Shown here in pieces: positions 29,956-38,341 of a DNA stretch of 64,000 nucleotides. Positions within the stretch are counted from its first letter, which is position 1. Every line of letters begins with the position of its first letter. The notes under the pieces were generated by a model. The model was not told the DNA's origin, did not search any database, and saw only the letters and a program-made list of their open reading frames with translations. The position numbers and the translations under genes are program-made. The DNA comes from Lentisphaeria bacterium (lineage in GTDB: Bacteria > Verrucomicrobiota > Lentisphaeria > Victivallales > UBA1829). Location of the stretch: the NCBI GenBank assembly GCA_017541665.1, contig JAFXYP010000069.1:1-64000 (forward strand). Direction: 5' to 3'.

Positions 29956-30618
29956 ATGGGCAGAAAACATTTATTCAGTCTGATTGAAATCGCGGTGGCT
30001 CTGGCCGTCGCGGCGATCGGTGTGGCCTCCATCATGGCGCTCCTGCCGATTGCCGTCAAGGCAACCTCCGATTCCGTCGGCGACACGCTCGCCGCCGATG
30101 TCGCCAATACCGTGATCGCCCAGCTCGACAGGATCGTCTGGGAGGAAGGTGGTTTTGAATATTTACGGAAGAATACGGATTTTCCCGAAAACAAGCCGAC
30201 CAGCGCATTTGGTACTACCGTAGTCGACGGTTATCTCAAGCAGTTCGGCGAAAAGAGTACCGAGGATTCCTACCTGATCCTGCCGAAAGACGGCCTCAAA
30301 AAAGGACATTTCGTGTTCATGTTCGGTCCGAAGTCGGGCGCGCCCGATTTCTCTGCGGAAGTGTACTGCTGGAGGGATTCTTCCAGCTCCAATCTGCCGT
30401 TGACCCGGAGAAACGGGGATACGGGGGAGGTCGGAAAGATCAATTCGCATACTATCAACCATAATGGATATTCGCCGCTTGTCCGCATTTACGTCGAGAT
30501 CACCTGGCCGCTTACCAAGAAATACGGGACCAGTTCGAACCGCAGATATGTACGCCAGTCCCGCACGTTCGTCCGCGAGTATGTCGACCCGACCTACTAC
30601 AAGGGTGTGGAGAACTGA
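29956..30618 (+). CDS. Pseudopilin-like protein (cassette gene 1)
   Basis: 220 residues. The N-terminus MGRKHLFSLIEIAVALAVAA is a type IV prepilin-like signal and hydrophobic helix with the conserved Glu at +5 (FSLIE), but Leu rather than Gly stands before the predicted cleavage site. The remainder is a globular domain rich in Asp, Ser and Tyr. ATG 29956 is chosen so that the leader is short, as in prepilins. First of five genes that run to 35629 with small gaps or overlaps. Size and place fit the B-type protein of the cassette described as Verru_Chthon in Verrucomicrobia, which is a recollection to be checked by HMM. Confidence 0.8.
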   Translation: MGRKHLFSLIEIAVALAVAAIGVASIMALLPIAVKATSDSVGDTLAADVANTVIAQLDRIVWEEGGFEYLRKNTDFPENKPTSAFGTTVVDGYLKQFGEKSTEDSYLILPKDGLKKGHFVFMFGPKSGAPDFSAEVYCWRDSSSSNLPLTRRNGDTGEVGKINSHTINHNGYSPLVRIYVEITWPLTKKYGTSSNRRYVRQSRTFVREYVDPTYYKGVEN

Positions 30619-30630
30619 GGAGGATTTCCG

Positions 30631-31296
30631 ATGAAAAAGCCTTTTACCCTGATTGAAATCCTGGTCGCGATGAGCATCCTGTCCGTCTTCCTGCTCGGGC
30701 TGATGCAGTTCTATTCCACCACCGAAAGCGTGCTGAGTTCCGGCGTCGACCGCTCGGAGATGTTCGAACGCGCCCGCGTCGCCATGGACATGATGGCGAA
30801 CGACCTCACGTGCATCTATTATTCGCAGAGCGAGGGAGCCCAGGCGTTCCGGAGCAGCTCCGCCGGCAGCGACAACGGCTATTTCGAGGCGGTTACGGTC
30901 CGTCCGGAGAAACTGAACCCGGATGCGAAGACCTCCATCGTGGCGGTCAAGTATGAAGTGGGATCGTCGTCCGGCGGCGGAAACAGCCTTTATTATTCCT
31001 ATGATTCCAAAGGCGACAACTTCAGCGTGTCCGGCGCATCGTTCGGCAACAAGACCGAACTCGTCGAAGGTGTGACCCGTTTCAGTGTCAGGACGATCAG
31101 CGAAGGAAACTCCCTGCCCGCGCTCGTCGTCATCCGGCTGGAGCTCCTCGATTCCAAGTCCCTGAAGCGAATCAAAGCAAATTCCGCCCTGAAGGATACC
31201 ATTACCAAGAATCCGGCAAACGTGCGCGAGTTCCGCCGCATGATCGTCATCGACCGCGGCCAGCCGAAACCGCCGGCATCGAAAACGGGGTCATGA
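30631..31296 (+). CDS. Pseudopilin-like protein, GspJ-like (cassette gene 2)
   Basis: 221 residues beginning MKKPFTLIEILVAMSILSVF: prepilin motif with Pro before FTLIE. The following ARVAMDMMANDLTCIYYSQS resembles the helix after the membrane segment in GspJ/minor pseudopilins. The gene is 12 bp downstream of cassette gene 1 with GAGGA before the ATG. Likely a minor component of a type II secretion-like or type IV pilus-like fibre. Confidence 0.82.
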   Translation: MKKPFTLIEILVAMSILSVFLLGLMQFYSTTESVLSSGVDRSEMFERARVAMDMMANDLTCIYYSQSEGAQAFRSSSAGSDNGYFEAVTVRPEKLNPDAKTSIVAVKYEVGSSSGGGNSLYYSYDSKGDNFSVSGASFGNKTELVEGVTRFSVRTISEGNSLPALVVIRLELLDSKSLKRIKANSALKDTITKNPANVREFRRMIVIDRGQPKPPASKTGS

Positions 31297-31317
31297 CCGG
31301 AAAGGAGCTGCTGAACG

Positions 31318-34245
31318 ATGAAAACGCATAAAAAGAATGAAATGATACGGATGCTGAAACGGTCCGTCCGCGCACGCCGCGAACACGGGCTTGCGCTCCT
31401 CTTTACGCTCTGCATCCTTTCCATGGCGCTCATCACTGCCATGATCTTCTCGTCGAACTCGTCGACCGACCGCAAGGTCGCCAGCGCCTATGTCGACACC
31501 TCCGCGGCCCGGATCCTCGCCGACGGCGTCGTCAACCGCGCCATCCTGTCCCTGCTCCAGTCCGACAACGCCGCCTATGTCTGCTCCAACTACGGGACCG
31601 CCAAGCCGAAGAACTTCGACGCGAACGAATACGCCTCCGACTGGATCTGGAAACTGGAGAAGGACGGCATCTTCTCCTTCGACGCAGGCCCGCTCCGTTT
31701 CAACAGCTCCGTCTACTACGACCCCAACGACGCCCGCTGCCCGTCCTGGGAATATGTGTTCGGCCCGGTCTACGGCGACCCGGACAACGAACATATCCTC
31801 GGCCGCTACGCCTATGTTGCCATCGGACAGAACGACCAGCTGAACCCGAACGCTCTCGGCAGGCGCGACTATCCCGATTTCGACCTCACGAGATTCCAGA
31901 AGCGTCTCGGACGCTGGACCTGCGAGCCGGAGTTCATCTTCAAGAGCACCCGGAACAACTGGGACTACACCGCCAATTCCCCCCAGAGGGGCGCACCGGT
32001 CATCTCCCGGGAGACCATCCGCAGCAAGTATTCCTCCCCCGGCTGGGAAGATATAGACGTCTTCTTCACCGATATCGCCGGGAATTCCGGCGAGGACAAC
32101 CAGCAGCTCAAGATGATGATCGACCAGTATTTCGACGCCACCGTGCAGGGCGAATACAACCGGTACCGCCTCGACGGAAAGCCGTCCGGCGACCTCACGA
32201 AATACAATGACGTTCCGAGCGAGGAGCACTACCGCTTCCCGCTGATCCGCACCGACTGGGATTCCATCCGCCATCAAACGGTGAAGGATGCGATCCCGTG
32301 GTTCCAGAACTCTTCGGAGGGCAATGTGGACCAGGTCGTCGCCAACCTCATCAACTTCAACGCGTCCGCCAGCCGCCCGCCCGTGGACGACGGGCAGAGC
32401 TGGTTTACCGGCGAACCTAAATTCACCGGCAACAAGCGCACCCCGTACATCAACGAAGTGCTGGCCGAGGTCTCCGTCAGCGGCTACCTCGGAATGCGCA
32501 AGATGGAACGTTACCTGAAACCCGAGGGGGATTCCCAGGTCCCGAAATGGCGCCTGTGGTACCAGGGATGCACGTATTCGCCCGAGATTACGATCAGCGT
32601 CGAGACCGTGAACATGTATCCTTCCAGCGGCGAAAACGCCGCGATCTCCGTCCGGAATCCCATCCTGATCGGCGAGGTCAGCTTCGATTACTGGAATGAC
32701 AACGGCGACATGCCCGGATTCTGGGCCACGGAGACTCTCCGGTTCGACGCCAACAACCAGCCGTGGACCGATGATGTCCGCCCCATCCCCGGCGACGATG
32801 CCGGCTATATGAAATACATTTATTTCCTTGATGGTGATGCGCTCGGGAACATGACCACGCGGAAACGCGATGACTACGATATGCCCATCGGGCACGAAGC
32901 CGATTTCATGCCGTATGTCAGGGTCAAGAACGTCAGGGTCAAGGTCGACCGCGTTGTCCTGCTGGATAATTCCGGGCGGAATGCCGACCTCTCCCTGATG
33001 CCGATGCCGCTTTCGGGCAGCGGGATCGTTTTTGAACAGTCCGGCGATCCTTCTGAAAACGCCGGCATAGGCGTCGCAGGCGCCGGCGACGACCTCAAGA
33101 AATATTGTGTCGATACGCAGGCGAACGATCCGCGCCAGAACCTCAGCCGCAACGACTGGAGCACCCCGTTGTACGGAACCACCGCCAAGTCGGACATCGG
33201 AAAGAAAAACGGAGTCGGGATCAAGGTCGGCACCTATCATGACACCGAGCAGAATAACAATAATCCCAACCCCGCCTACGTCAACGACTCCACGCATATC
33301 TCCACGGCATACATCCGGCATGCGCCGATGCAGTCCCTGTGGGAGCTCGGCGCCATCCACCGCGGCGCTCCGTGGCAGACGATCAACCTGAAATGCGGAT
33401 CCAAGAACGGCGTCGCGATGGGCAGCTACGAAACCGGCGACGGCCATCTGCTGGACCAGGTCGCGCTCGCCCGCAGCACGGAGAAGGCCGACGATGCCGT
33501 GGTCGGCATGATCAACCTGAACTGCGTGGCGACGTTCGGCGGCGGCAAGGCCCCGTTCTCATTCAAGTCCCTGTTTACCAATTTCCCCGTCTACCAGACC
33601 TTCGAGAATATGAACAAGTCCGGCCGCAGCGGGGCCGTCTACACGATCCGCGGCGACTCCGTCGATTCCGACAAGACCGGCACGACGGATGCCGACCTTT
33701 ATGCCAAGGAGCTTTCCGAGGCTGTCACCTATGCGCTTTCGAACGGGTATTACCTGCGCCGCACGGCGGTCTTCCCCACCATGGAGCATGCCCAGATGGA
33801 GCACATCATCCCGCTGGGGAACAATGTGCCGGATGCGCAGTCCGAAGAGATCTTCGCCCGCGTGGTCAATCTGCTGAAGTGGAACCGCCAGCCGGTCAAA
33901 CGCGCGACCGTGCTGGTGCTCGCGCAGACCATTCAGGACGTCGGCGGCGATGTTCCCCTTGAGAAGACCGAGCCGAGCAACTCCAACGTCCGCCTGCGCG
34001 ATGCCGGGTTCATGGCTTTCAGCTCCACGAGCAAGAGGGTCCTCGGTCCGAACTCCGGCAATTCGCCCCCGACGATCAAGTTCGCGCGGACCTCGCCTTC
34101 GGACAGAGTAAAATTCCGATATTACGAACCCCTTTTCGACCAGATCACGGGCGAGGCGAAGCTCATCGTCCGCCTGGAATGGGACGATTCGGCCTACGAT
34201 AACCACGGAGCATGGAAAGTAACGAGGAAAGAATATGCGGAATAA
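31318..34245 (+). CDS. Large PilX/GspK-like cassette protein (cassette gene 3)
   Basis: 975 residues. The N-terminal region RREHGLALLFTLCILSMALI then FSSNSSTDRKVASAYVDT resembles the hydrophobic helix of PilX/GspK minor pilins (GxALLxxL...), with Gly before the segment and no TLIE. The long remainder has no motif I recognise; it is rich in Asp, Asn, Tyr and Trp and may be an extracellular head domain. GspK proteins are about 300-350 residues, so this is about three times longer. Size and gene order fit the A-type protein of the Verru_Chthon cassette. Overlaps the next gene by 11 bases. Confidence 0.72.
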   Translation: MKTHKKNEMIRMLKRSVRARREHGLALLFTLCILSMALITAMIFSSNSSTDRKVASAYVDTSAARILADGVVNRAILSLLQSDNAAYVCSNYGTAKPKNFDANEYASDWIWKLEKDGIFSFDAGPLRFNSSVYYDPNDARCPSWEYVFGPVYGDPDNEHILGRYAYVAIGQNDQLNPNALGRRDYPDFDLTRFQKRLGRWTCEPEFIFKSTRNNWDYTANSPQRGAPVISRETIRSKYSSPGWEDIDVFFTDIAGNSGEDNQQLKMMIDQYFDATVQGEYNRYRLDGKPSGDLTKYNDVPSEEHYRFPLIRTDWDSIRHQTVKDAIPWFQNSSEGNVDQVVANLINFNASASRPPVDDGQSWFTGEPKFTGNKRTPYINEVLAEVSVSGYLGMRKMERYLKPEGDSQVPKWRLWYQGCTYSPEITISVETVNMYPSSGENAAISVRNPILIGEVSFDYWNDNGDMPGFWATETLRFDANNQPWTDDVRPIPGDDAGYMKYIYFLDGDALGNMTTRKRDDYDMPIGHEADFMPYVRVKNVRVKVDRVVLLDNSGRNADLSLMPMPLSGSGIVFEQSGDPSENAGIGVAGAGDDLKKYCVDTQANDPRQNLSRNDWSTPLYGTTAKSDIGKKNGVGIKVGTYHDTEQNNNNPNPAYVNDSTHISTAYIRHAPMQSLWELGAIHRGAPWQTINLKCGSKNGVAMGSYETGDGHLLDQVALARSTEKADDAVVGMINLNCVATFGGGKAPFSFKSLFTNFPVYQTFENMNKSGRSGAVYTIRGDSVDSDKTGTTDADLYAKELSEAVTYALSNGYYLRRTAVFPTMEHAQMEHIIPLGNNVPDAQSEEIFARVVNLLKWNRQPVKRATVLVLAQTIQDVGGDVPLEKTEPSNSNVRLRDAGFMAFSSTSKRVLGPNSGNSPPTIKFARTSPSDRVKFRYYEPLFDQITGEAKLIVRLEWDDSAYDNHGAWKVTRKEYAE

Positions 34246-34972
34246 TCATTTCATCAAAACACAGATCGTGCTGGCCGCCCTGGTCGCGACTGTGATCGCG
34301 CCGATCAGCGTATTCGCCCAGCAGAGAACCGCCGCCCGGACCGCCGCGTCCATCAAGGACAGTGACATTTACGTCCCGGACAAAGTCCTGGAACCCTCCC
34401 TCACCAGGAAGGAAGCCTCCGATCTCCTGAAGGACTACATCGCCGCGTTCGGCGACTCGGACATGCCGAAGTCCTATGCCGCCTTCGCCAGGGAGCCCGA
34501 GAAGTACAAACGCATCGGGAGCCGCCAGCTCAAGTCGTGCCTGGGCAACCTCTTCAACTACATCTTCGACACCACCATCAAGCCGGACAGCTCCGGCCGC
34601 AACGCGGTCAACCCCGAACTCATGGAGGTGACCGAGGCCACCGACGCATGGTTCCGGGCGCTCTACAACAAGGCGCTCGAACTGAACGACCCCGCCGCCA
34701 TGATGGACAAGGCCATCCGCACGCAGAACGCCAACCTGTACACGCAGGCGAAGAAGGCCTACGACGATAAGGTCGAGGAGCTGAACAAGTTCGCCAAGAA
34801 ACCGGAACGCCTCGACGCCGCGGCGCTCAAAAGGCTTGCGGAGACAAACAGGGCCAGGCGCAAAAAGGAATACATCGCCCTGCGCAAACAGCAGATCATC
34901 GAGGAGGAAGCCGCCGCGAAACAGGCTCTCGACGAGGAACTGAAAAAGGCCGCTTCCTCCAAAAACAAATAA
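34235..34972 (+). CDS. Secreted helical protein of unknown function (cassette gene 4)
   Basis: 245 residues. Signal peptide MRNNHFIKTQIVLAALVATV ending near VFAQ; then a mainly helical protein with a strongly charged C-terminal third (AAALKRLAETNRARRKKEYI, EEEAAAKQALDEELKKAA), predicted coiled coil. No family recognised. Its start overlaps the large cassette protein and a pseudopilin follows after 24 bp, so it is probably a periplasmic assembly or partner protein of the fibre. Confidence 0.7.
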   Translation: MRNNHFIKTQIVLAALVATVIAPISVFAQQRTAARTAASIKDSDIYVPDKVLEPSLTRKEASDLLKDYIAAFGDSDMPKSYAAFAREPEKYKRIGSRQLKSCLGNLFNYIFDTTIKPDSSGRNAVNPELMEVTEATDAWFRALYNKALELNDPAAMMDKAIRTQNANLYTQAKKAYDDKVEELNKFAKKPERLDAAALKRLAETNRARRKKEYIALRKQQIIEEEAAAKQALDEELKKAASSKNK

Positions 34973-34996
34973 CCCCATCCCACCGGGAGACACGAT

Positions 34997-35629
34997 ATGA
35001 GAAAACATGCAGCCAGGCCGTTTACGCTGATCGAACTGATCGTGGTCATGGGAGTGATGATCCTCATCGCCGCGATCGCGGTTCCCGCGTACAGTTCGCT
35101 TTTCTCGGGCCGCAAGACCACGCTCGCCGCAAATAAGCTGAACGGCGCGGTCATGGAGGCGCGCGCCCACGCCGTGACCTCCAAGCAGTACAGCGCGCTG
35201 ATCTTCGGGAAGGAAGGGAACGGCTACACGAATTTCCGCCTGGCCGAGGTCTATTACAGCCCCAGCAAAAACACTTACGCCTGGCGCCGCTGGGTCCCGG
35301 GCGCTTCCATCGTGCTCCTCCCCGAGAACACCATGATCCCCACGGGAAATGAAAACCTCGGCACGACTGCCAAGGGCGTGTCCGGGACCATGGGGTCGGC
35401 CGACCTGCCGGAAGTCACCCTGTCCACCAATTCCGGCATGTCCGAATCCGAAGCTCCCGCCATCGTGTTCAAGCCGAACGGCCAGCTGGCCGGGACGCGG
35501 GAAAAGAACGTGGTGGTGCGGTTCGTGGAGACCAACCGGTACGAGGCGAACAGAAGCGTGACACCGAAACTCCCGCTGAACATCAACTGGCTGACCTGCA
35601 AGACCAAGTTCCTGGACCCCGTGCAGTGA
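34997..35629 (+). CDS. Pseudopilin-like protein, GspH-like (cassette gene 5)
   Basis: 210 residues beginning MRKHAARPFTLIELIVVMGV, with Pro before FTLIE, and AAIAVPAYSSLFSGRKTTLAANKLNGAVMEARAHAV, which follows the GspH/FimT pattern (helix then ..L...l..AR..A). CCGGGAG is upstream of the ATG. It ends 27 bp before the Ser/Thr kinase gene, so cassette and kinase are probably one transcript. Confidence 0.82.
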   Translation: MRKHAARPFTLIELIVVMGVMILIAAIAVPAYSSLFSGRKTTLAANKLNGAVMEARAHAVTSKQYSALIFGKEGNGYTNFRLAEVYYSPSKNTYAWRRWVPGASIVLLPENTMIPTGNENLGTTAKGVSGTMGSADLPEVTLSTNSGMSESEAPAIVFKPNGQLAGTREKNVVVRFVETNRYEANRSVTPKLPLNINWLTCKTKFLDPVQ

Positions 35630-35656
35630 CCCCATATCTCCGGAGATAGACACAGT

Positions 35657-37951
35657 ATGCGTTTTCAATGTTCATCCTGCGGCAGGATCGTAGCTGTCGA
35701 CGACGTTGACGCCGGCATCATGGTGCAGTGCGGCCACTGCGGCAGCGTGGTGCAGGTCCCCCCGACGCGCCTTTCCCGCGGCTCCGTGATCGCGGATTTC
35801 ATCATCCGCCGCGCCATCGGGCAGGGCGGAATGGGCACGGTGTACCTGTCCCACCAGATCACGCTCGACCGGCCCGCCGCGCTGAAGATCCTGGCGGAAT
35901 CCTACGCGAACAACGCCGAATTCGTGGCGCTCTTCATCAAGGAGGCCCGTGCCGCCGCCAAGCTGAACCATCCGCATATCGTCCAGGCCTATGCCGTGGG
36001 CGAGGACGACGGACTGCTGTATTTCGCCATGGAGAACATCGACGGCGAGACCATGAAGGACGTGCTGGATCGCGAGGGCGCGATCCCCGTGGACCAGGCG
36101 CTGAACGTGATCCAGCAGATCGCCGAGGCGCTGAACTACGCCTGGATCGAACAGAAACTCATCCACTGCGACATCAAGCCCGACAACATCATGCTCACTT
36201 CCACCGGACGCGCCAAGCTCGCCGACCTCGGTCTCGCACGCGTGACCGGAGACATGAGCGATTCGGACGACGACGAAGTCATGGGCACGCCGCAGTATAT
36301 CAGCCCCGAAGCCCTCACCGGAGCCCCGATGGATACCCGCAGCGATATCTACAGCCTCGGCGCCACGTTCTACCAGTTCGTGACCGGACGCCTGGCATTC
36401 GACGGCGCCACCGCCGCCGAGATCGCGAAGAAGCACCTCACCGAGCCGCTGATCCCGCCGCGTTCCGTGAACAAAGATATCCCGGAGAGCGTTTCCCGCA
36501 TCATCATGAAGATGATGGCGAAGAACCCCTCCATGCGTTATCAGGACGCTTCCGAGCTCATCGACGACCTCCGCAACGCACGCCGCGGCAAGCTCGCCGG
36601 CCCGGCCACCGATTCCGAAATCCTTGCCGGCGGCGCGAAACAGGCTGCACGTGTGGCGCGCCCGGTCGGCGGCGGGACGGTCCTCGCTTCCGGCGCGGAT
36701 CATCAGAACGACCGCGCACGCAATATCTATAACCTGAAAAAACGCCAGCAGGACGAGGCCCGCAAGACGAGGATCGTGGTTATGATCGCATGCCTCGTGC
36801 TCCTTGTTTCCCTCGTTGCGGCGGGCATCCTCTTCTATTTCAACAACGCCAAGGCGCGCGAGGAACGCGCCCGCAAGGAGGCCGCCGAGGCTGCCGAACG
36901 CGAACTCCAGCGCGACACCCCGATGACGCTGGAAGTCGACGAGATCCTGGCGTTTTCCCGCGCGAATCCCTCGGACAAGCGCGGCCTGCTTGAGAAGTGC
37001 GAGGCTTTCATCGCCAAGAACTACCAGCCCTCGAAACCTAAAGAGGACCAGGCGCTGATGACGTTCCGCGCAGTCTTCCAGGAGGTCGACGAAAGCATGA
37101 TGGCGTCCACGCGCGACCTGGAGGCCAGAAAACTCCGTAAGCTGATCGCCCAGCGCAGGGACGACGCCGAGGCCGCCGAGGAGGCGCGCCGCCGTGCGCA
37201 GCAGGCCGCCGAGGATAAGCGCAAGGCCGACGAATACGCCCAGCAGGCCGATCAGCTCCGCAAGGAGCAGAGCGCCCGCACCGCCATGGAGCTTGCCGAA
37301 CGCCTGGTTACGGACAAGGAGTATTTCGCGGGGCACATGATCGAGCAGACCCGCCACGACCATCTGGACCGCGCGGAAAAGGATTACGCCGACTGGTTCC
37401 AGACTCTCGACCGCCATGCGCAGGATTCCGACGAGGCCGTCGCCGAGGTCGCACGCCCGTACCGCGACTGGGCACGGATCGTGCTCGACAATATTGCAGG
37501 CGCGAAGGCCATCCGCGAGAACACTTACAACGGCAATACCATCCTCGCCGAAACCCAGGTCGGCTACGGCCCGTCCGGCATCTGCCGCGTGAAGTCCATC
37601 AACAACGGCGTCGTGAAGGCTGTCATGGTCGACGGCAAACAGTTCCAGTTCAATTTCGACGACCTTCCGCTCAAGCAGCGCCTGGTGCTCCTGAAGAAGG
37701 GCGCGGGTGAGGCCGGGCATTCCGACGCGCTGTATTTCTATCTGCTTCTCTACGGCGATTTCGCCGGCGCGAAGGAGATCGTCGCGGACGACGACAACGC
37801 GAAGGAGATCGCCAACTACATTCTCGCCAGCTATTTCAAATACGTGGTCAAGAACTCCGATGAGAAGACGCTCGAGGAACTCAAGGCCAAATACGGCACG
37901 ATGCGCGAATTCCGTAACGCCATGTCCACGTACAAGCAGAACAATCCCTGA
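35657..37951 (+). CDS. Membrane-anchored Ser/Thr protein kinase with N-terminal zinc ribbon
   Basis: 764 residues. N-terminal zinc ribbon with C5, C8, C25 and C28; PknB-type kinase domain from about 48 to 310 with glycine loop IGQGGMGTVY, lysine K77, catalytic loop HCDIKPDN (170-177, Cys instead of Arg, so non-RD), DLG (190-192) instead of DFG, and GTPQYISPEAL. One transmembrane helix lies near 374-395. The outer part has a charged coiled-coil stretch (EEARRRAQQAAEDKRKADEY) and a C-terminal domain without known motif. Its position after the pseudopilin cassette suggests it senses or regulates that system; this is inference. Confidence 0.9.
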   Translation: MRFQCSSCGRIVAVDDVDAGIMVQCGHCGSVVQVPPTRLSRGSVIADFIIRRAIGQGGMGTVYLSHQITLDRPAALKILAESYANNAEFVALFIKEARAAAKLNHPHIVQAYAVGEDDGLLYFAMENIDGETMKDVLDREGAIPVDQALNVIQQIAEALNYAWIEQKLIHCDIKPDNIMLTSTGRAKLADLGLARVTGDMSDSDDDEVMGTPQYISPEALTGAPMDTRSDIYSLGATFYQFVTGRLAFDGATAAEIAKKHLTEPLIPPRSVNKDIPESVSRIIMKMMAKNPSMRYQDASELIDDLRNARRGKLAGPATDSEILAGGAKQAARVARPVGGGTVLASGADHQNDRARNIYNLKKRQQDEARKTRIVVMIACLVLLVSLVAAGILFYFNNAKAREERARKEAAEAAERELQRDTPMTLEVDEILAFSRANPSDKRGLLEKCEAFIAKNYQPSKPKEDQALMTFRAVFQEVDESMMASTRDLEARKLRKLIAQRRDDAEAAEEARRRAQQAAEDKRKADEYAQQADQLRKEQSARTAMELAERLVTDKEYFAGHMIEQTRHDHLDRAEKDYADWFQTLDRHAQDSDEAVAEVARPYRDWARIVLDNIAGAKAIRENTYNGNTILAETQVGYGPSGICRVKSINNGVVKAVMVDGKQFQFNFDDLPLKQRLVLLKKGAGEAGHSDALYFYLLLYGDFAGAKEIVADDDNAKEIANYILASYFKYVVKNSDEKTLEELKAKYGTMREFRNAMSTYKQNNP

Positions 37952-37975
37952 AACGACTTGGGGAGCAACGATACC

Positions 37976-38341
37976 ATGAAGATCACAGAAGACATTGTCA
38001 AAGCGCTGCACGCCTGCATCGCGGACGGGTATGACTCCGTCACCGATTTCGCAAACTGCGCCAACGTCAGCGCGAACACCATTTCCAAGTACATGCGGCG
38101 CGAGACCGAGGTCATGCAGAAGGATACCTGGGAGAAGCTCCAGCCGCTCCTCACGGCCTACCTGCCCAAGGACGGCGACAAGGTCAAGTACGAGATCGAG
38201 ATGACCGCCGACCAGAAGATTCTGCTGGATGCGTTCGACAGCCTGCCGCCGGACGTCCAGAGCCAGAAGCTCATGGAGATCATCCAGCTCGCCAAAAAGC
38301 ATCTGGCCGCCGTCGAGGCTGCGAAAAACGCCGCCGAATGA
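37976..38341 (+). CDS. Small helix-turn-helix DNA-binding protein
   Basis: 121 residues. SVTDFANCANVSANTISKYM looks like a Cro/XRE-type helix-turn-helix (residues about 21-40); the C-terminal half is helical and charged (QKLMEIIQLAKKHLAAVEAA). TTGGGGAG precedes the ATG. It follows the kinase by 24 bp and could be a transcriptional regulator of, or a substrate in, the same system. Target unknown. Confidence 0.65.
   Translation: MKITEDIVKALHACIADGYDSVTDFANCANVSANTISKYMRRETEVMQKDTWEKLQPLLTAYLPKDGDKVKYEIEMTADQKILLDAFDSLPPDVQSQKLMEIIQLAKKHLAAVEAAKNAAE

Follow-up and report, generated by a model that had tools for sequence, protein, structure and literature searches.

The gene block and its surroundings

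Seven open reading frames, all on the forward strand, span positions 29956–38341 of the window (the whole 64,000-nucleotide stretch of DNA that was analysed), in the order B, C, A, cc, D, kinase and HTH (Table 1). Gaps inside the block range from −11 to 27 nt, the spacing between D and the kinase gene being 27 nt. The original prediction of a five-gene pseudopilin set followed by a transmembrane kinase and a helix-turn-helix (HTH) gene was correct as to gene content, with all seven frames present as described and tightly packed. Upstream of the cassette lie ptsN and genes that we take, from reading of their translations, to be dnaA and a gene for an Mrp-like ATPase; downstream are a tRNA-Asp gene and, presumably and on the same basis, genes for a pseudouridine synthase, a XerC-like recombinase and an ApbE-like protein. 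The source assembly is fragmented (2.6 Mb, 77% complete), and most of the congeners' named records are from the guts of ruminants; several carry the label Lentisphaeria or Victivallales. A promoter and terminator scan of the locus gave counts similar to those for shuffled sequence, and so was uninformative on positions 35630–35656.

Table 1. Features of the pilin–kinase block, with the evidence for each assignment.
Feature	Position	Strand	Basis
B: prepilin-like, position I (GspI/PilV-like)	29956..30618	+	Verru_Chthon B as top NCBIfam hit; Glu5 in 32 of 32 matched sequences
C: prepilin-like, position J (GspJ/PilW-like)	30631..31296	+	best NCBIfam match Verru_Chthon C; relatives and profile-profile comparison
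A: 975-aa position-K protein (GspK/PilX-like)	31318..34245	+	TIGR02600 and GspK matches; AlphaFold2; without Glu5
cc: small secreted coiled-coil protein	34235..34972	+	recurs directly behind A; 11-nt overlap with the end of A
D: minor pseudopilin, position H (GspH/FimU)	34997..35629	+	predicted fold, relatives' matches, profile-profile comparison
Kinase: zinc ribbon, Hanks-type Ser/Thr kinase domain, one transmembrane helix, coiled C-terminal part	35657..37951	+	Pkinase 5.3e-49, motifs
HTH: small helix-turn-helix protein	37976..38341	+	cassette linkage in the window's genus only

Conservation in the genus and order

The order dnaA-ptsN-B-C-A-cc-D-kinase-HTH-rsuA was common to 10 congeneric genomes, in which the block proteins were 35–98% identical to those of the window. 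Nine of these (G043, G044, G045, G047, G048, G051, G052, G053 and G054) carried the complete block from dnaA to rsuA on a single contig, and in G050 the same order was divided at the A gene across two contigs. Because both the order and the proteins have been kept in these 10 congeners, the seven frames are real genes. An eleventh congener, G046, has B-C-A on a record that stops inside A, with HTH and kinase together on a different contig. The assembly of one further congener, G049, contained no orthologue of the cassette, HTH or kinase genes; however, with a best ptsN match of just 33%, that assembly probably lacks the region, and we rejected G049 as a natural knock-out.

In a survey of the order comprising 137 genomes, the window's own included, A or a relative was found in 121. 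As a query for related loci, the single A protein returned no relatives; a 39-row alignment (alignment A1) recovered 143 loci, from which 78 distinct loci were kept. The commonest order among these 78 named loci was D-B-C-A (17 loci), which is also that of the cultured Victivallis vadensis DSM 14823, while D-B-C-A-cc occurred in 7 and B-C-A-cc-D-kinase in 12. At several loci (L181, L183, L184, L186 and L064), additional D-like (H-type) pilin genes stand in tandem ahead of D. The position of ptsN also varies, since in G027 (genus g4, L062 5172–6855) it follows cc, on the opposite side of the cassette from its place before B in the window's genus.

Kinship with the Verru_Chthon cassette

The first part of the block had been noted as fitting the Verru_Chthon cassette. 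The best NCBIfam matches of B, C and A were TIGR02598, TIGR02599 and TIGR02600, respectively, and D matched ComGD best and TIGR02596 second. None of the scores reached the curated cut-off (B 28.3 against 51.4 bits, C 38 against 256.5, A 19.5 against 332.3, D 25.9 against 70), and the matches of the window pilins to Verru_Chthon and H-I-J-K models were likewise below cut-off and mostly limited to the pilin helix. With scores so far under the cut-offs, strict membership fails. Each protein of this one cluster nevertheless matches its own Verru_Chthon slot model (for D, second to ComGD), and the same holds among relatives, where the slot's own model matched 34 of 34 C, 22 of 22 D, 24 of 39 A and 24 of 32 B proteins. 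As a control, the H, I, J and K proteins of the type II secretion system (T2SS) of the same genome matched none of the four Verru_Chthon models; the GspG of that system gave a weak match to the D model (1.3e-3). Only 4 of 195 genomes in a sample of the phylum exceeded the TIGR02600 cut-off.

We used cassettes with an over-cut-off Verru_Chthon A protein (L169–L176) as authentic references. In profile-profile comparisons with their authentic counterparts, C aligned over 265 columns (E 2.8e-20) and D over 199 columns (4.1e-22), while B (1.4e-11 over 61 columns) and A (1.4e-10 over 70 columns) aligned in N-terminal columns only; crossed-slot comparisons were far weaker (1.8e-6 and 2.2e-4). Single-sequence comparisons gave a similar picture, in that D matched the T2SS protein at 5.7e-7 over 39 columns as against 1e-14 over 194 columns for the authentic cassette protein, and C matched at 5.2e-5 and 3e-11, respectively. 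Homology beyond the pilin helix thus extends from end to end of C and D and is confined to the N-terminus of A and B, which suggests that B-C-A-cc-D belongs to a sister lineage of the Verru_Chthon cassette that has diverged from it, and is not a curated member. The assignment therefore stands as to slot-specific best or second-best matches and profile-level kinship, but not as to the curated cut-offs, which all four proteins miss.

Both cassettes comprise the same four kinds of protein, encoded by adjacent genes and without motor genes; homology runs through the whole of C and D and is limited to the pilin helix in A and B. They differ in that the scores here lie under the cut-offs, the body of A is unalignable, there is a fifth gene, cc, and a kinase gene follows in some genera. 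Moreover, the glycine at position −1 of B, C and D has nearly always been lost here, whereas Gly or Ala occupies that site in authentic Verru_Chthon proteins. No paper on the Verru_Chthon name or its model numbers was found in the open-access literature that we searched.

Assignment of minor-pilin positions

Classical models pointed to a distinct position for each protein among the relatives, with GspJ matching 26 of 34 C proteins, GspH 19 of 22 D, GspK 22 of 39 A and PilV 24 of 32 B. The AlphaFold2 model of D (pLDDT 88.1) returned only FimU, EpsH or XcpH in the first ten Foldseek rows. VIA-align ranked FimU (4ipu, Z 12.0) and EpsH (4dq9, Z 11.6) highest, followed by XcpH (10.9), GspH (10.2) and FimT (7.4), with the major pilin PilA (5.3) and Streptococcus sanguinis PilB (3.8) lower and non-pilin rows at or below 3.3. 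From this model, D is predicted to be an H-type minor pilin with the GspH/FimU fold. A sequence search of solved structures matched D mainly to major pilins at the helix, and also to FimU (9.4e-4), and gave one match for B (E 0.29) and three for C (E 0.047–0.14).

The fifth residue of the mature pilin was glutamate in all matched B (32), C (33) and D (22) proteins, and in none of 38 matched A proteins, where another residue, mostly Phe, takes its place and Gly(−1) is kept; this is the pattern of H, I and J with, and K without, Glu5. PilX in Myxococcus also lacks Glu5 (PMC7541494). The glycine before the cleavage site was present in 1 of 33 C, 1 of 32 B and 0 of 22 D matched proteins (alignments A2, A3 and A4), and always in A. 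Of the four T2SS pilins of the genome that have FTL-type sites (L096 5785–7858), three were also without it. The prepilin peptidase may, judging from these sites, have relaxed specificity.

The D-B-C-A order of the relatives equals gspHIJK and fimU-pilV-pilW-pilX, and we therefore take the position of D behind cc in the window's family, unlike the relatives' commonest order, to be probably derived. The assignment of D to H, B to I, C to J and A to K is well supported. The cassette resembles the fimU-pilV-pilW-pilX(-pilY1) clusters of type IVa pili in Pseudomonas and Myxococcus (PMC5979040, PMC7541494) in the slot order of its relatives, its want of motor genes, the H-type fold predicted for D and a K-position protein without Glu5, but its K-position protein is far larger and it includes a secreted coiled-coil protein. 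Its neighbour is moreover a Ser/Thr kinase, whereas in Pseudomonas it is the FimS-AlgR two-component system on which the minor pilins act. It likewise resembles GspH-I-J-K of the T2SS in slot assignment, in the GspH fold predicted for D and in a K-position protein without Glu5; it differs in that genes for a secretin, an ATPase or a platform protein are absent from its neighbourhood, and the genome's own T2SS HIJK genes are separate, on another contig (C31).

The linked kinase and HTH genes

The kinase has an N-terminal zinc ribbon, a Hanks-type domain with the motifs GQGGMGTV, ALKIL, HCDIKPDN (Cys replacing the usual Arg) and ADLGLAR, and a hydrophobic, transmembrane stretch at about residues 373–391, and is by these motifs and its one transmembrane helix a Hanks-type receptor kinase. 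Its C-terminal coiled part is probably extracytoplasmic. The best NCBIfam match was NF033483 (PASTA kinase), at 334.8 bits against a cut-off of 450. A kinase domain and one transmembrane helix are common to this protein and the PknB-like Ser/Thr receptor kinases of NF033483; unlike them, it scores under the cut-off, has no PASTA domain matched by Pfam and bears the zinc ribbon.

The kinase gene follows D on the same strand, at a gap of 12–62 nt, in 15 genomes; these belong to three genera (g1, g5 and g6, the window's and two others), and the order B-C-A-cc-D-kinase is identical across the linked genomes. In a genome of another family (f3, G004; L064, named record L220), a related kinase gene divergently flanks the pilin cluster. 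The linkage recurs in other genera and in another family, and so passes the survey of other genomes that the original prediction had proposed. It is not universal, for the orthologue lies away from the cassette in genera g4, g8, g9 and g10, and across the wider phylum only 1 of 20 cassette-like loci had a kinase close by. A tree of the kinase domains placed these proteins in one orthologous group, with deep branches poorly resolved. The unlinked kinase gene of genus g9 (L145–L148) adjoins a gene for a small secreted protein and a presumably Memo-like gene, so named from a LEST.AGSWY-like motif read in its translation.

This pattern can be read in two ways. The kinase may be a conserved kinase of the family that happens to sit behind the cassette in some genera, with no functional tie to it, and we give this possibility a little less than even odds. 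It accounts for the four genera in which the same-group kinase is encoded elsewhere, and for the finding that, outside the window's genus, the kinase domain is kept (63–80% identical) and the C-terminal part is only about 14–26% identical to that of the window, in linked and unlinked genomes alike. It does not readily account for the close same-strand adjacency and identical gene order in three genera, or for the related kinase beside the pilin cluster of another family. These latter observations suggest that the cell monitors or controls the pilus tip via the kinase, and we regard coupling of kinase and cassette as about an even bet. A precedent of a kind exists in Pseudomonas, where minor pilins and PilY1 modulate the sensor FimS, which contacts pilins in a two-hybrid assay (PMC5979040). 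However, FimS is a predicted histidine kinase, acting with AlgR in a two-component system, and its likeness to the Ser/Thr kinase here is therefore one of analogy only. By that analogy, it is conceivable, though rather doubtful, that the kinase is a dedicated sensor of the minor-pilin tip complex, and that cassette proteins or cc would touch its extracytoplasmic part so that it reports fibre assembly or surface contact.

The HTH protein, which had been read as part of the unit, does not appear to belong to it. Matches to its gene occurred in 105 of the 137 genomes. Outside the window's genus its relatives sit away from the cassette, and in several genera and families (L137, L138, L139, L142 and L143) the gene precedes others that we take, from their translations, to be Skp/OmpH-like and LpxD-like. 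We therefore rejected a role for HTH as cassette regulator, and the gene is probably incidental.

Which motor serves the cassette

The statement that no secretion ATPase lies nearby proved accurate for the whole of the window's contig. The genome has 12 PF00437 matches, 11 of them above cut-off, and 13 secretin matches, 12 above cut-off, and all are on other contigs. C31 carries a T2SS with the secretin GspD, GspE, GspF, GspG and H-, I-, J- and K-like genes, and on a second contig, C63, PilC is encoded together with three ATPases, two of them PilB-like and one PilT-like, with no adjoining pilin genes. PilT was above cut-off in all 36 genomes of the family, and the window's genome has one prepilin peptidase match. 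A 744-aa frame with two tandem PilT-family matches was also seen (G000:C35:4674–6839, L103), and many of the family's genomes have frames of about 720–820 aa that match PilT twice. In Myxococcus, three motor-less FimU-PilV-PilW-PilX-PilY1 clusters are thought to serve one type IVa pilus machine (PMC7541494), and a motor-less minor-pilin cluster is therefore not odd.

One possibility is that the cassette is not part of a type IV pilus, and instead provides a second pseudopilus tip set for the T2SS, serving as an alternative substrate adaptor. The T2SS on C31 is complete, the matches include models of H, J and K, and the slot model cannot separate T2SS from type IV pilus. We nevertheless consider this unlikely, in view of the H-I-J-K genes that the T2SS already has of its own, the lack of a pilin gene adjoining the ATPase and platform genes of C63, the preference of the B matches for PilV over GspI, and the nearest fold of D, which is FimU, albeit tied with EpsH. 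The type IV pilus machine on C63 is the more likely motor of the cassette, a preference reached by elimination only, because the T2SS has its own G-H-I-J-K. The "surface fibre" of the original prediction is accordingly better described as the tip or priming complex of a fibre that depends on a motor from another part of the genome.

Protein A and the coiled-coil protein

The AlphaFold2 model of A (pLDDT 76.9, pTM 0.75) shows a helix at residues 8–81 followed by a large mixed part; the extracytoplasmic portion is very large and has a beta-rich region at about 372–580. Foldseek found no significant match to this fold, and a sequence search of solved structures found none to A. The best VIA-align rows, mostly immunoglobulin-like and located at about 372–580, reached a Z of 4.3, which is not above background, and we set these matches aside as evidence of function. 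Relatives of A extend to about 1200 aa and share the motif ISTAYIRxAPMxSLWELGAIHRGAxWQTINL, for which we know of no role. The size of A, mostly outside known folds, and the several loci, many on cut-off records, that show A without a detected B, C or D could indicate that A is a large adhesin acting alone at the surface, that B, C and D are helpers of unrelated function and that there is no H-I-J-K complex, but the four proteins travel together in most loci and fill distinct slots with the H-I-J-K pattern of Glu5, making this very improbable.

The cc protein begins with a hydrophobic, signal-like N-terminus ending in VFAQQ. Its gene stands directly behind A in the window's family (f1) wherever the record covers that side, as well as in family f3 and at some further loci, and weakly in f4 (alignment A9 comprises cc from 18 loci). 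The suggestion that the coiled-coil gene is an extra is contradicted by this recurrence, and cc is a recurrent fifth component of the cassette.

A proposed motor-less tip complex

We propose, with a probability of roughly 0.8, that B-C-A-cc-D encodes an engine-less minor-pilin priming or tip complex of the H-I-J-K type, and is a divergent sister lineage to the Verru_Chthon cassette. In this reading, D would act as GspH/FimU, B as GspI/PilV, C as GspJ/PilW, and A as GspK/PilX with a very large extra part. The genome's prepilin peptidase would process all four, which would then assemble in the inner membrane and start a pilus or pseudopilus built by the motor encoded elsewhere. The four proteins would ride at the tip of the fibre with the large part of A exposed, and cc may serve as a periplasmic accessory. 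Where the kinase gene directly follows the cassette, in the window's genus and two more, its product would be an inner-membrane protein whose catalytic domain faces the cytoplasm and whose C-terminal part lies on the far side of the membrane, and it could sense or control the cassette.

As we read it, this gene set is ordinary in kind and unusual in dress: a diverged tip complex of minor pilins that lacks a motor of its own, carries a recurrent fifth gene and is followed in some genera by a kinase gene. If D is read as GspH/FimU, and A, B and C as K, I and J, such cassettes acquire a role that can be tested, that of tip complexes without their own motor, and the kind is no longer confined to the few genomes that exceed the cut-off but takes in nearly all of the order, including Victivallis. 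It also makes testable the question of whether a Ser/Thr kinase is able to read a pilus tip; if so, this eukaryotic-like Ser/Thr kinase would play a part comparable to that of FimS-AlgR in the minor-pilin signalling of Pseudomonas.
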